DNA from: a candidate division KSB1 bacterium
GTDB taxonomy: Bacteria > Zhuqueibacterota > JdFR-76 > DREG01
Assembly (NCBI GenBank): GCA_022566355.1
Contig: JADFJB010000006.1
Span: 1 to 64,000, forward strand
Reading direction: 5' to 3'
Length of the DNA: 64,000 nucleotides
In this document: positions 57,350-62,549 of the stretch, piece by piece
Layout: every line of letters begins with the position of its first letter
How positions within the stretch are numbered: the stretch's first letter is position 1
Position numbers and translations under genes: made by a program
Notes under the pieces: model-generated
The model's input: only the letters and a program-made list of their open reading frames with translations
What the model was told of the DNA's origin: nothing
Database searches by the model: none

Positions 57350-57709
57350 ATGGACAATAAGGAATTTGCAAAGCAGCTTGAAAATCGAACAAGAACTTTC
57401 GCGATTCAAATTATTCAATTATCAACTAAATTACCAAGGACACCAGAAGCAAATGTAATTAGAAAGCAAATAACTAAAGCGGGAACTTCAATTGGTGCGA
57501 ATTATCGGGAAGCTAATCGATCAAGAAGTAAAAATGACTTTATAAGTAAAATTAGAATATGCGAAAGTGAGTCAAGCGAAACCCAATATTGGCTTCAGAT
57601 TATTGGGCAAATGTCCTGGATTTCAAAAGAAATAATAAATCCTTTGTATGAAGAATGCAGCCAATTGCTCGCACTATTTTCCTCCATTGTCCAAAAAAGT
57701 AAATTATAG
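57350..57709 (+). CDS. Four-helix-bundle protein (S23/IVS family)
   Basis: A 119-residue all-helical protein: FAKQLENRTRTFAIQIIQLS, RTPEANVIRKQITKAGTSIG, ANYREANRSRSKNDFISKIR and ICESESSETQYWLQIIGQMS. These are the blocks of the four-helix-bundle family first seen in 23S rRNA intervening sequences and related to the accessory variability protein (Avd) of diversity-generating retroelements. GGGGGAG precedes the ATG. It lies between inverted AAGTGCCTAAAG arms, not in an rRNA gene. The function is unknown; binding of nucleic acid is the usual inference. Confidence 0.87.
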   Translation: MDNKEFAKQLENRTRTFAIQIIQLSTKLPRTPEANVIRKQITKAGTSIGANYREANRSRSKNDFISKIRICESESSETQYWLQIIGQMSWISKEIINPLYEECSQLLALFSSIVQKSKL

Positions 57710-57750
57710 GTTGTAGTTTATAAATAATTAAATAATAGCATCTTTTTAAT

Positions 57751-57772
57751 TTTAGGCACTTTAGGTACTTTT
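57751..57772. repeat. Right arm: inverted copy of the AAGTGCCTAAAG unit
   Basis: TTTAGGCACTTTAGGTACTT (57751-57770) and following Ts. The reverse complement matches the left arm (57117-57156) with one mismatch per unit. It lies 42 nt after the stop of the four-helix-bundle gene. Confidence 0.7.
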
Positions 57773-57795
57773 TTTATTATTGGATGACTTTTAGT

Positions 57796-57903
57796 CTAGC
57801 GAGCTATCGTCTGTAACTCTTCTCTGATAACTTTTCGGAGCGTACTTTCCAACTTACATTCGTGTTGTTGAATTACTGGCATAATGCATCATTGATCAAG
57901 GTC
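57796..57903 (-). pseudogene. Duplicate 3' fragment of the BrnA-type antitoxin gene
   Basis: On the minus strand it reads QQHECKLESTLRKVIREELQ, then TIAR-stop (stop 57796-57798), the same end as the antitoxin at 58627-58890 (KLESTLRKVIREELQTIAR). Nucleotide identity is about 88-90 percent over 57789-57903 against 58620-58736. A 2-bp loss near 57880 breaks the frame. Upstream of 57903 the similarity ends. The fragment and the intact copy flank the DUF433/DUF5615 pair. Confidence 0.8.
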
Positions 57904-57997
57904 GTCTTGCAGGATGGGTAAGAGGCAACACAACGTACGAAACAGATTTCGGTTAGCGCATCAGAGCGGTGCTAGCTAGTGTGAAATTTATGTGACA

Positions 57998-58264
57998 CTA
58001 TGCGCCCGCCAAACTTTTAGAACAACATGAGACGAGTGCAATCACAATTACCCCATTGTGATTTTCAAATTGGAGTGGAATAGTGTGAAAAAAATCTTTA
58101 TCCGTAGTTAGAAAAATTGCTGAATTTTTTTGTGCTATATCAAAAAGAACAGAATCATCAACTCCTTTATATTCAATGGAATGTCCATCTATCGTTTCAT
58201 GGCCAGTTGAATTTATATACGAAATACTTTTTCTAGGAAAATTCTCATCAAGAAAAAATATCAT
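57998..58264 (-). CDS. DUF5615 PIN-like toxin, C-terminally truncated
   Basis: An 88-residue PIN-like protein: MIFFLDENFPRKSISYINST with the acidic DEN metal-site motif, then IEYKGVDDSVLFDIAQKNSA and FLTTDKDFFH (TTDKDF, the second acidic motif). The last ten residues (VSCCSKSLAGA) do not fit the family, so the C-terminal part has been replaced at a junction near 58010. Overlaps the stop of the DUF433 frame at 58261 by four bases (ATGA), as in the usual antitoxin-toxin operon. PIN-like toxins are RNases. Activity is doubtful because of the lost end. Confidence 0.7.
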   Translation of the reverse strand: MIFFLDENFPRKSISYINSTGHETIDGHSIEYKGVDDSVLFDIAQKNSAIFLTTDKDFFHTIPLQFENHNGVIVIALVSCCSKSLAGA

Positions 58265-58507
58265 GATACCTTGAGATTGTAAGGTAGACTTTCAAAACTG
58301 GAGAGGTAACTTCCAAATGAGAGCGCTGCTTGAATATCCTCTTTTGATATATTTGGATAGTCTTCCAAAATTTCTTGAAACGTATCTCCCGGATGCAAGA
58401 GCGCCAAGTATGTTACTTACAAGGACTCTTGTCCCTTTGATAACCGGCTTTCCATGACAAACATTTGGATTTATAGAAATTCTTTCAATCATAACCATTT
58501 CCTGCAT
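58261..58507 (-). pseudogene. DUF433-family antitoxin, one-base frameshift
   Basis: The first frame reads ERISINPNVCHGKPVIKGTR, then VLVSNILGALASG, the DUF433 start (NPxVCHGKPVIKGTR). One extra G (GCATCC-GGG-AGATACG, where GGA is expected) shifts it. The other frame continues DTFQEILEDYPNISKEDIQA, ALSFGSYL and SLPYNLKVS to TGA at 58261-58263. Joined, the two halves give a normal ~80-residue DUF433 protein. The toxin start overlaps the stop. The first-frame continuation to 58292 is not real protein. Confidence 0.75.
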
Positions 58508-58626
58508 TCATTTATAGGTAAAAAAAACATTTTATAATTAAGCGCCAAAACGCAATAAGATCAAAATTATTTTTTTGTGTGTTTTAAAAATGAATAGAAT
58601 CTTCACTCGAAATGTTAATTTTTAGT

Positions 58627-58890
58627 CTAACGCGCTATTGTCTGTAACTCTTCTCTGATAACTTTCCGCAGCGTACTTTCCAACTTACCTTCGTGTTGTT
58701 GAATATACTGGCTTAATGCATCATTAATCAGGGTTTGGTAATTTCCACCACCCATTTTATGAACTTCATTGCGAAACCATTTAATTACATTGTCATCCAA
58801 ACGAATGGTTATGCGTGTCTTACCAGGTGGCGATTTTACAACTGCACCTTGCTTAGCGCTACTAAAATTATATTCTTCTTTTGCTTTCAT
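58627..58890 (-). CDS. brnA: BrnA-type antitoxin
   Basis: An 87-residue protein: KTRITIRLDDNVIKWFRNEV (the ribbon strand and helix of the ribbon-helix-helix fold), GGGNYQTLINDALSQYIQQH, and KLESTLRKVIREELQTIAR at the C-terminus. This matches the BrnA antitoxin, which binds DNA and neutralises the RelE-like RNase BrnT. The start ATG lies inside the end of the BrnT pseudogene frame (stop 58868), the normal toxin-first order for this system. The antitoxin is intact while its toxin is broken. Confidence 0.85.
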   Translation of the reverse strand: MKAKEEYNFSSAKQGAVVKSPPGKTRITIRLDDNVIKWFRNEVHKMGGGNYQTLINDALSQYIQQHEGKLESTLRKVIREELQTIAR

Positions 58891-59148
58891 ATGTTTTACT
58901 CTCCGTTTTTGTGGCTTTGCGGGCTGAAATTATTCGAATATTGTCACCGCGATGCGTATACACGACAACAAGTACTCGGCCAAATAAATCTATTCTGCTG
59001 TTGCAAATCGCTGTTCGTCCTCAATAATTTGATCTTTAATAGTTAAGCCCAGATCATCTTCAAGTACACTCATTGCATCTGCAAAATCTAATTTATGCTT
59101 CTTTAGATTTCGAGTTGCCTTTTGCGCATCCCATTGATAATCTACTAT
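58868..59148 (-). pseudogene. brnT: BrnT toxin, start codon lost and frameshifted
   Basis: The frame reads VDYQWDAQKATRNLKKHKLD, FADAMSVLEDDLGLTIKDQI and IEDEQRFATAE-stop, then in another frame IDLFGRVLVVVYTHRGDNIR and IISARKATKTESKTYESK (stop 58868). These match BrnT (start ...EWDxxKAxxNxxKH, end IRIISARKAT). A single G lost near 58985 (GCA-GA-ATA for GCA-GGA-ATA) breaks GIDLFGR. The expected ATG is ATA (59146-59148) with no ATG, GTG or TTG in frame before a stop. Both faults would prevent normal toxin. Confidence 0.78.
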
Positions 59149-59159
59149 GTTTCAATATA

Positions 59160-59174
59160 TGCACAATCAGTGCA
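59160..59174. promoter_or_regulatory. Candidate operator palindrome upstream of brnT
   Basis: TGCACAATCAGTGCA: 5-bp arms around a 5-bp centre, about 12 nt upstream of the toxin start. BrnA-type antitoxins repress their own operon from such sites. Inferred from position. Confidence 0.45.
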
Positions 59175-59570
59175 CAAAGCAAAGATTAAAAGTTGATCAT
59201 AAATATTGGTGGGGATGATACTTTTATAGTGTTTATAAAATATGGTTCATCATTAAGGATGCATACTTTTCGATTTGAAGCAAGGGGTCTATTTTTGAAA
59301 TTAGGTTGGGACACAATATATTTATGATCCTTACTTATTAATCCTCTACGAGGTTATTTATGATCAATTGCAGCAGAATGAGGCATCCACAGATTTTGAT
59401 TTATCCTCGTTTAGGATATATTTATAAAAACTCTCGCAGAGAAAAAAACATCGGAGATGTTTAATTATTGTAGAAACGAAGTCGAACATTTCCTCGTAGA
59501 GGATACATATGCGACTTGTATAACCTCTTCTTTCATTTCCACCATATTGACCTGGGGCAAAGAACCCCAA

Positions 59571-59630
59571 TGATTTTGAAATATGATATGACATACAATA
59601 TTTAGAAGCGAATGTCAAGTTATTTTTGGG
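59571..59630 (+). repeat. 60-bp direct repeat, copy 1
   Basis: Starts TGATTTTGAAATATGA and ends GCGAATGTCAAGTTATTTTT plus GGG. About 85 percent identical to copy 2 at 59880-59939 (nine mismatches, no gap). The shared core GCGAATGTCAAG is exact. Confidence 0.85.
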
Positions 59631-59642
59631 ATTATTATCAAT

Positions 59643-59767
59643 ACAGGGCCGCGGCACAATGAGATGAACGGCGCTCCTGATAACAGGATTACGGCTACTT
59701 GGCCAGTCCTGACGCCTCGGAACATAGATCTCGAATCCGATACTTGGACTGGTGCTTGCGGCCCTGT
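59643..59767. ncRNA. Candidate structured RNA or foldable DNA element
   Basis: The 10-bp ends ACAGGGCCGC (59643-59652) and GCGGCCCTGT (59758-59767) pair exactly, extended by GCAC (59654-59657) with GTGC (59752-59755). Inside are hairpin TCCTG-ATAA-CAGGA (59675-59688) and stem CAGTCC/GGACTG (59704-59709 with 59746-59751), itself enclosing TCGGA/TCCGA (59717-59721 with 59736-59740). This makes a multi-branch fold in a GC-rich island inside AT-rich DNA. The strand is not known. It does not match any RNA I recognise; a transposable or attachment-type element is also possible. Confidence 0.5.
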
Positions 59768-59879
59768 TGTATCCATGTTACAAACCGAGAAATCCTTTGG
59801 CAAGACATAAAGATTCAGGAAGTAAATTTTCCCAATTCTAACTTAGATTCATCCTGAATCTGGTCCTGTGAATTCTTAC

Positions 59880-59939
59880 TGATTTTGAAATATGACATTA
59901 AATACAATATTTGATTGCGAATGTCAAGATATTTTTGGA
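59880..59939 (+). repeat. 60-bp direct repeat, copy 2
   Basis: Starts TGATTTTGAAATATGACATT, ends GCGAATGTCAAGATATTTTT plus GGA; the partner of the copy at 59571-59630. The two lie on either side of the structured element. Confidence 0.85.
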
Positions 59940-60224
59940 AGCAAGGTCGGAAAAGTAGTTTAGATGAACACCGCTTGAGAGAACCGTGGGCATAAATACA
60001 TTCCTAGCTTCATAATTCAAAAATAATGTAATAATTTTTGCCTAGATTCCCAACAAATATTTTTAATGGTTAATTATTATTGAGCTTTCAAACAACCTTA
60101 CCTGCTCAAATTGCAACCAGGCAGCTAGCTGTTGTTGATTCATGGGGAGGAATAAATGTGGTAAAAGAAAAATATCATAGGTGAAGTTTCAGATTTTATT
60201 GTTTCATCGAAAAATGAAATTGTA

Positions 60225-61076
60225 GTGTCAGATAATCAAGCTAATCAGATCCTGTTTTTTGATAAAAAAGGCAATTGTATTCGCAGAGTAGGCCAAAAAG
60301 GACAAGGACCTAATGAATATAAACGCCCAGGTTCCATTGCACAAACTGATACGAATCTGATTATCAATGATCATGGAAATTCACGTTTTCAATATCTTTC
60401 GTTAACGGGTGATTATATAGCCATAAAAAGTTACGAAATAGAAGTTGCACCATTAATTTCATCTAGAGGTGAAAGTTTTGATCATTCCGGAAATTATTTT
60501 TTAGCTACAAACGGATATTTGGCGGACAGTCTTATACAGAAATTTGATAAAAGTTTTAATCCAAAGCAATTGTTCGGTGAATTAGAATCTGATCAATTTG
60601 ATTACCTAAATTACGCAAGTTTAAAGAAAGCCATTGAGAACAATCAAATTCCAGCAGTTCTGGTGAATTCTATTTTATTGGAATATTGTGAAGATGCTAC
60701 TTTGTTAGCCGTCCATATGTCGATACCTGTTATAAAAAGGTTTTCGAGCCAGGGCAAATTGTTGTTTCGAAAAAGCCTTAAAGTCCCGGAAATGGATTTG
60801 ATGAAGGAAAAATTCTTTTCGGATAATAAAAAGAGTAAGAAAAAAAGGTTTCGGCCTCTTTATTATTGGATGGATTTAGCATTGGACAATAAAGGTGGGG
60901 CTTATTTGTTATTATTCTATAATGAAAAGATGATTTTATACCATGTCGATTATGATGGCAACCTGATAGAAAAACTAATTGGCCCCAGCGATTTTATAAG
61001 TCAAATCGTTTTGAATGGCAACGAGTTATGGGCATTTGGTATTTCATCTTTAAAGTTTTATAGATTTGAAATTTGA
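60225..61076 (+). CDS. 6-bladed beta-propeller protein, 5' end damaged
   Basis: A 283-codon frame from GTG 60225. It starts with propeller blades: NQANQILFFDKKGNCIRRVG, QKGQGPNEYKRPGSI, TNLIINDHGNSRFQYLSLTG, LALDNKGGAYLLLFYNEKMI and YHVDYDGNLIEKL, the NHL/6-bladed pattern of exported FCB proteins. In-frame sequence before 60225 is also protein-like (NIIGEVSDFIVSSKNEIVVS) back to a TAA at 60162, and an upstream frame carries AVVDSWGGINVVKEK. The signal peptide is missing, so the gene is probably 5'-frameshifted near an A-run at 60164-60172 and may not be functional. Confidence 0.65.
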   Translation: MSDNQANQILFFDKKGNCIRRVGQKGQGPNEYKRPGSIAQTDTNLIINDHGNSRFQYLSLTGDYIAIKSYEIEVAPLISSRGESFDHSGNYFLATNGYLADSLIQKFDKSFNPKQLFGELESDQFDYLNYASLKKAIENNQIPAVLVNSILLEYCEDATLLAVHMSIPVIKRFSSQGKLLFRKSLKVPEMDLMKEKFFSDNKKSKKKRFRPLYYWMDLALDNKGGAYLLLFYNEKMILYHVDYDGNLIEKLIGPSDFISQIVLNGNELWAFGISSLKFYRFEI

Positions 61077-61130
61077 ACATCTTACCTATTATGAAAAAAT
61101 ACTTTGGAAACGATAATATTTATACTATGT

Positions 61131-61149
61131 TGTAACGTTTTGCGTTACA
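61131..61149. promoter_or_regulatory. Candidate HigA operator palindrome
   Basis: TGTAACG-TTTTG-CGTTACA, a perfect 7-bp inverted repeat with a 5-bp centre, 8 to 20 nt ahead of the toxin start. The antitoxin of this operon has a helix-turn-helix domain and such antitoxins repress their own operon, so this is a likely binding site. Confidence 0.6.
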
Positions 61150-61156
61150 AAGTAAT

Positions 61157-61468
61157 GTGACGTATATATTGATCACTGTTAAATTTAGAAGAATCTATTT
61201 GGAGAAATGTTATCGAATTAAAAGTGAAGCTCATAAAAAATGGGGCCCGATTGTCGGAGATAAGTATATTAAGCAATTAAATTTAATCTATGCTACTGAA
61301 TCAGTAAAGGATTTATATTTAATACCTCAATTACGATTTCATCCTTTAAAAGGCGACTTGGAAGGTCATCACTCTATTACTCTTACATATCGAGCACGTT
61401 TAATAGTTAAATGTGACGGTGATACTATCATTTTGATAGAAAAGGTAAGTACAAAACATTATGAGTAA
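61157..61468 (+). CDS. higB: HigB-type toxin (RelE superfamily)
   Basis: A 103-residue protein: KFRRIYLEKCYRIKSEAHKK, WGPIVGDKYIKQLNLIYATE, LYLIPQLRFHPLKGDLEGHH and SITLTYRARLIV, then EKVSTKHYE. LRFHPLKGDLEG is the HigB signature, and HYE at the end is a usual catalytic region. GTG 61157 or TTG 61169 may be the start; the latter gives the better N-terminus (ITVKFRR). HigB cleaves mRNA on the ribosome. The gene overlaps the antitoxin by 8 bp, and unlike the other modules here it is free of stops. Confidence 0.82.
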   Translation: MTYILITVKFRRIYLEKCYRIKSEAHKKWGPIVGDKYIKQLNLIYATESVKDLYLIPQLRFHPLKGDLEGHHSITLTYRARLIVKCDGDTIILIEKVSTKHYE

Positions 61469-62549
61469 TAATGATTTTTATACAGACAGTCCCATTCATC
61501 CGGGCGAGCATTTGAAAGATACTCTTGCATCTTTTGGTCTCTCACAAACTGAATTATCTAATCGTATTGGAAAGTCCAGAAAGGTCATCAATGAAATTAT
61601 TTCCGGCAAAGCTCCTATTGCACCCAGCACTGCGATTCTTTTAGAACGTGTTCTAAATGTGCCGGCTCATGTATGGAATAATCTACAGCGTAATTTTGAC
61701 CTGAATATTGCATATCTATCTGAGCAAGTCAAAATAAAAAAGGAAAGTAAATTATTAAGCTACTTTCCTATTCGTCAAATGATCAAATTTGGGTGGATTC
61801 CGGAGTGTATGTCTAATGAAGAAAAAGTAAAAAATTTACTTTCATTTTTTTGTGTATCCAGCCTCATGAATATTGAAAACTCTCTATCTGTTCAATTTCG
61901 TCGATCGATAAGAGATAATATTTCAAAAGAAGCTTTATACGCATGGATCCGGCAAGGTGAATATGAAGTCAGAAAAATTGAAACTTCAACCTACGACAAA
62001 ATTGGTTTACAAAAATGTCTATCAGAATTGAGAAATCTTACAAATGTTTCACCGGAACTGTTTCAACCTGAAGTTAAGAGAATTTGTGCTGGAGTTGGTG
62101 TTGCTGTTGTGTTTGTTCCAGAACTTCCAAAAACATACATCAATGGCGCCACATTTTGGTTTGATGGTTTTAAAAAATCAGCACTTTTATTAAGCCTTCG
62201 GTTTAAGACAAATGACAATCTTTGGTTTAGTTTTTTTCATGAATTAGGCCACATCATACTACATCGCAAAAAGGAAAACTTCCTGGATATCTCTGATTTA
62301 AAACTCACTGGTGAAGATCGAATCAAAGAAAAAGAAGCCGACACTTTTGCTGCTAATATTTTAATTCCGGATGCAAAATGGAACGATTTCAAATATTCGG
62401 TTCCGTACACAAGACAGAAGATTTTACAATTTTCGCAAGACATTGCAATAGCCCCTGGGATTGTTGTCGGACGTCTTCAAAAGGAAGAATTATTGCCTTA
62501 TAGTCACCTTAATGGACTGAAAGAAAAATATCAATGGGTTCTGGATTGA
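61461..62549 (+). CDS. higA: HigA antitoxin fused to an ImmA/IrrE metallopeptidase domain
   Basis: A 362-residue protein. Residues ~10-75 are a helix-turn-helix domain of the HigA type (IHPGEHLKDTLASFGLSQTE, LSNRIGKSRKVINEIISGKA, LERVLNVPAHVWNNLQRNF). Residues ~200-350 form an ImmA/IrrE-like peptidase: ICAGVGVAVVFVPELPKTYI, FFHELGHIILH (HExxH at about 260) and KEKEADTFAANILIP with the third ligand Glu. Classical HigA is about 100 residues, so this is a long form. The peptidase could degrade a repressor or the antitoxin itself; that is inference. Confidence 0.85.
   Translation: MSNNDFYTDSPIHPGEHLKDTLASFGLSQTELSNRIGKSRKVINEIISGKAPIAPSTAILLERVLNVPAHVWNNLQRNFDLNIAYLSEQVKIKKESKLLSYFPIRQMIKFGWIPECMSNEEKVKNLLSFFCVSSLMNIENSLSVQFRRSIRDNISKEALYAWIRQGEYEVRKIETSTYDKIGLQKCLSELRNLTNVSPELFQPEVKRICAGVGVAVVFVPELPKTYINGATFWFDGFKKSALLLSLRFKTNDNLWFSFFHELGHIILHRKKENFLDISDLKLTGEDRIKEKEADTFAANILIPDAKWNDFKYSVPYTRQKILQFSQDIAIAPGIVVGRLQKEELLPYSHLNGLKEKYQWVLD

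Follow-up and report, generated by a model that had tools for sequence, protein, structure and literature searches.

The window analyzed here, a 64,000-nt stretch of DNA from a candidate division KSB1 bacterium (contig JADFJB010000006.1), contains a pseudoknotted RNA gene on the minus strand, flanked by two direct repeats. The features of the locus, ordered along the minus strand, are as follows.

59880-59938, minus strand: right direct repeat, with a TTGACA box at 59922-59927; outside the RNA gene
59798-59803, minus strand: -35 box TTGCCA, at the family's conserved distance; 9/12 jointly with the -10 box
59775-59780, minus strand: -10 box TAACAT, spacer 17; scored jointly with the -35 box
59643-59768, minus strand: pseudoknotted RNA gene, 5' end at about 59768 and 3' end at 59643 or slightly beyond
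59758-59767, minus strand: outer 5' strand of the closing stem P1, ACAGGGCCGC, pairing with 59643-59652
59752-59755, minus strand: inner strand of P1, GCAC, pairing with GTGC at 59654-59657
59746-59751, minus strand: 5' strand of P2, CAGTCC, pairing with GGACTG at 59704-59709; covarying helix
59736-59740, minus strand: 5' strand of P3, TCGGA, pairing with TCCGA at 59717-59721; covarying helix
59728-59732, minus strand: 5' strand of PK1, GAGAT, in the P3 loop, pairing with ATCTC at 59661-59665; pseudoknot
59713-59716, minus strand: 5' strand of the proposed PK2, GGCG, pairing with CGCC at 59670-59673
59675-59688, minus strand: hairpin P5, TCCTG-TTAT-CAGGA, which covaries
59571-59629, minus strand: left direct repeat, with a TTGACA box at 59613-59618; outside the RNA gene

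Most of what a previous sequence-only reading had described at this locus is borne out. The GC-rich island is real, with 57% GC at 59643-59767 and 32-34% in the flanking 300 bp to the left and right; the closing stem of 10+4 bp (ACAGGGCCGC/GCGGCCCTGT plus GCAC/GTGC) is exact; and the sequence contains both the TCCTG/CAGGA hairpin, at 59675-59688, and the CAGTCC/GGACTG arm. The fold z-score is -3.4 on the plus strand and -2.8 on the minus strand, with 1-2 of 200 dinucleotide shuffles folding equally well. Consistent with the remark that nothing in the element resembles a known structured RNA, no Rfam 15 family reached its gathering score in the whole window or at the homologous loci, and relaxing the threshold at the element yielded only chance snoRNA matches (E>1). 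Around the RNA, the interval 57350-62549 carries a set of toxin-antitoxin-like genes, encoding a 23S rRNA IVP protein, a DUF5615/DUF433 pair, a BrnA antitoxin, a HigB-like toxin and an HTH/IrrE-type partner. In addition, an inverted repeat (CCTCTACGAGG/CCTCGTAGAGG) lies at 59336-59353 and 59492-59509, spaced 138 bp apart in AT-rich intergenic DNA that holds further related palindromic words.

The homologues and covariation that the sequence-only reading proposed to look for both exist in related genomes. Nucleotide searches of 82 genomes from the same phylum revealed diverged copies, 70-80% identical, in about 10 of them. Aligned in one orientation, they share the letters GGCGCTCC...GGAT...TCCTGACGCC...CTTGGAC, and the closing stem swaps letters while keeping its pairing. 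A search pattern built from these homologues matched at least 116 stretches in reference genomes. By their record titles, the matches listed include Myxococcota, Thermodesulfobacteriota, Verrucomicrobiota, Planctomycetota, Acidobacteriota, Gemmatimonadota, Calditrichota and KSB1, Fidelibacterota (Neomarinimicrobiota), Cloacimonadota, Chloroflexota, Zixiibacteriota, Spirochaetota and others. The covariance model R1 matches the window at 59638-59773 on the minus strand with 111 bits (E 1.8e-30), and this is the sole copy in its genome.

Scoring the structure with its pseudoknots in alignment A2 (113 rows) showed that 91.7% of the pairs are kept, compared with 37%-47% in slid controls and 77.8% in shuffles, and that 617 cells are changed on both sides, compared with 193 in shuffles. 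P1, P2, P3, PK1 and P5 covary in this alignment, all five pairs of PK1 showing two-sided changes. PK2 (GGCG/CGCC), in contrast, is invariant and lacks covariation support, its invariance being at least partly fixed by the search pattern. Nine further members outside the pattern were found by a model from which PK1 and PK2 are absent. In these members, P2 is paired in 34 of 36 cases, P3 and PK2 in 35 of 36 each and P5 in 45 of 45, and the P3 loop is complementary to the 3' strand (PK1) in all nine. Two members illustrate the exchange of letters: P2 becomes AAATC/GATTT in L156, a member outside the pattern, and P5 becomes TGCGG/CCGCA in L156 and L166. The data support both the nested helices and the P3-loop pseudoknot. 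About 35 positions are invariant or nearly so, in part because the search pattern fixes them; most of the conserved letters are within helices or next to them, and no long unpaired stretch that could serve as a seed is conserved.

Read on the minus strand, the family shows TTGACA-N16-18-TATAAT upstream of the RNA at a fixed distance. Promoters scoring at least 9/12 occur at 47-55 nt in 38 of 113 members, compared with 8 in the adjacent bin and 0-3 in the others. T-runs follow the closing stem in 56 of 111 members and appear farther downstream in only 12 of 111, and 188 G-U cells against 93 A-C cells also favor this strand. Promoter, T-run and wobble evidence together rule out a plus-strand reading of the fold. 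The data therefore support the minus strand as the functional one, which corrects the sequence-only reading. The window copy itself has a modest promoter, TTGCCA-17-TAACAT (59803-59775, 9/12), and a poor, unclear T-run.

The same reading had raised the possibility of a conserved minus-strand ORF at 59615-59803. A 62-aa frame does exist there, and a conserved small protein would be the corresponding alternative. The frame is unconserved among 115 homologues, however; stops interrupt all six frames, each in 66-91% of them, and the changes track base pairing. We regard this alternative as refuted, with next to no chance of being right. Covarying helices, a promoter at fixed distance and the lack of coding potential together mark a standalone structured RNA gene, and the earlier suggestion of a novel ncRNA is strongly supported by the covarying structure, the promoter of its own and the lack of an Rfam match.

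We found no protein family recurring within 3 kb of the RNA beyond a few related species. The named proteins among 30 scanned neighbors are unrelated (MutS, EPSP synthase, GlgC, CstA, asparagine synthase, TetR and Cas1), and 10 unnamed neighbors had no match in a defence library. A tRNA link was likewise discarded, given that only a few loci have a tRNA gene within 500 bp. In an Opitutaceae MAG, a Cas4-Cas1 fusion gene (L030 1498-3564) follows 79 nt after the RNA, the only such case observed. The arrangement of the neighbors bears on whether the RNA is a cis-acting riboswitch or attenuator, in which the core would sense something and P1 with its T-run would stop transcription before the next gene. 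The highly conserved core, the T-run after P1 in about half of the members and the co-orientation of the nearest downstream ORF in 52 of 77 cases, above chance (p 0.003), are all in keeping with such a device, and P2/P3 and PK1/PK2 could be rival pairings that alternate. The downstream genes, however, have no common function, and a third of them (25 of 77) are antisense; co-directed genes of related function, as expected for a riboswitch or leader, were not found. Moreover, individual sequences preserve the two pairing sets side by side, and in 107 of 112 the nested P2/P3 fold has greater stability than the PK1/PK2 alternative. We read this as both sets being present together, though a switch between them may occur. 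Since the neighboring genes are unrelated and often antisense, the RNA is standalone and probably acts in trans, and control of the next gene is an unlikely role.

Another part of the sequence-only reading, that the element is an integration site or part of a retro-element, did not hold up. The 60-bp flanking direct repeats it described (85% identical) do exist: 59571-59629 and 59880-59938 are identical at 51 of 59 bases (86%), compared with at most 33 of 59 in shuffled flanks. Searching elsewhere in the genome located the 59-bp repeat singly at two other places (contigs C44 and C158), both without the RNA; the repeats thus recur, as the reading had proposed to check, but do not delimit the RNA. 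The copy on C158 precedes a 101-aa ORF. The repeats were rejected as ends of a mobile unit, since the other copies stand alone and one lies ahead of this unrelated ORF; they look like promoter-bearing sequences separate from the RNA rather than its borders. The 101-aa ORF after a copy of the window's repeat at L003 1566-1871 presumably resembles DUF2442.

The idea that the RNA travels with a mobile element or forms one of its ends (integron attC, MITE, retro-element or IS-associated guide RNA) would be consistent with these repeats, with the patchy presence of the family, which extends to presence or absence between near-identical genomes, and with one member that adjoins an IS110 transposase. 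It is nevertheless very improbable. There is mostly one copy per genome, and no integrase, reverse transcriptase or transposase is recurrently linked; the several copies with a linked integrase or transposase expected of an attC site or mobile end were not found. A plasmid and phage search with a representative RNA gave no match, and viral contigs yielded no family copy, five loose pattern matches there being rejected as they are not covariance-model matches. In the RNA tree, members cluster by phylum (28 label changes compared with 64.5 when shuffled, few columns being usable), and the copies in one family of the window's phylum share a site in a kynurenine-pathway locus (TDO-ALDH-[RNA]-x-RidA-HAO).

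Near-identical genomes provide a closer view of gain and loss. The flanks in G053 and G048 are 98-99% identical, and 76 bp in G053 replaces a 377-bp segment with the RNA. Given this RNA-free sister genome, the RNA is dispensable, and its gain or loss leaves no evident marks of a mobile element, although the compared genomes are metagenome-assembled or drafts and assembly error is possible for this pair. An empty-site comparison of G005 and G006 gave no syntenic flanks. A same-genus species carries the kynurenine operon and lacks the RNA. We attribute the link to this operon to local history, as it is confined to one family, plus ALDH alone in one acidobacterial MAG (L074). Near a tryptophan-dioxygenase-like gene (L182, L181 and L183 in G048, G053 and G036, respectively), the DNA is entirely substituted between near-identical genomes, and in a third genome it holds three kynurenine-pathway-like genes.

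Altogether the family comprises at least about 115 loci in about a dozen phyla, and carrier genomes nearly always have a single copy. Within the phylum of the window, 15 of 82 genomes are positive, nearly all with a single copy and one of them doubtful (a 25-bit match); in two other phyla, 7 of 99 and 2 of 115 are positive, counting the positive starting genome in each; and of 24 additional genomes spread over many phyla, 21 have a single copy. These counts are lower bounds, the large scans scoring few candidates per genome, and L157 (25 bits) and L191 (37 bits) are treated as doubtful. The RNA thus appears to be an accessory trait, mostly inherited within phyla and often lost.

The best explanation overall, held with roughly even confidence, is a standalone, accessory, trans-acting RNA that binds protein. 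In this model, a structured RNA of about 125 nt would be transcribed from a single-copy gene on the minus strand under a sigma70-type promoter of its own, with the closing stem and the T-run behind it ending transcription in many members. The compact pseudoknotted body would then bind a protein in trans, in a ribonucleoprotein or sequestration mode as for 6S and CsrB, and would act neither by pairing with mRNAs nor by controlling the next gene. Protein binding in trans, our best guess for the function and one that we would back about half the time, is favored because there is no seed, no adjacent partner gene and a conserved compact core. We found no protein partner for the RNA. Hfq was detected in none of 82 genomes of the phylum, in a search whose control was positive in 5 of 14 known genomes, and Ro60 (TROVE) in none of the 15 RNA-bearing genomes of the phylum (1 of 82 overall); both partner schemes are disfavored accordingly. 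The lack of detectable Hfq and of a conserved unpaired seed also speaks against a small RNA repressing mRNAs through base pairing, which we consider unlikely despite a size, a promoter and a terminator typical of sRNAs.

Known systems resemble the present RNA only in part. Like 6S and CsrB-type RNAs, it has an independent gene and a proposed protein-binding role; unlike them, it is patchy and dispensable, has no Rfam match and lacks the long bulged hairpin and repeated GGA loops that mark those RNAs. It shares with the bacterial Y RNAs, partners of Ro60, a patchy occurrence, a low copy number and a long stem closing the ends, but its core is different and its genomes in the phylum lack Ro60. 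A compact pseudoknotted fold in scattered single copies also recalls HDV-like and other small ribozymes, and a catalytic RNA with a nested pseudoknot might account for the partly pattern-fixed set of near-invariant positions. We nevertheless consider catalysis improbable: no Rfam ribozyme matches, the strand order differs from the HDV-like topology, and it is not obvious what a cleaving RNA that has a promoter and terminator of its own would cut.

Further parallels are the orphan standalone motifs Acido-1, Acido-Lenti-1, Gut-1 and Whalefall-1 from comparative screens, which are likewise structured, predicted apart from mRNAs, without gene association and unassigned in function, several of them mostly in environmental genomes, as here (PMC2864571). 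All four are in Rfam and none matches in sequence or structure, and the present family spans more phyla and has a pseudoknot that covaries. Our literature search found no matching motif, many subscription papers and supplements lying outside its reach. The element almost certainly represents a genuine family of standalone RNAs that Rfam does not contain; a range of this many phyla is rare for a structured RNA outside Rfam. We consider it possible, somewhat short of an even chance, that it constitutes a new trans-acting class in about a dozen phyla, whose pseudoknotted core would serve a function outside present RNA classes, such as a new ribonucleoprotein, sensor or catalyst. Near-strict single copy, a promoter of its own and a covarying pseudoknot point to real selection, and the RNA-free sister genome marks an accessory RNA and offers a clean setting for finding its role. 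The covariance model, which rejects chance pattern matches in viral contigs, could be used on any genome or metatranscriptome.
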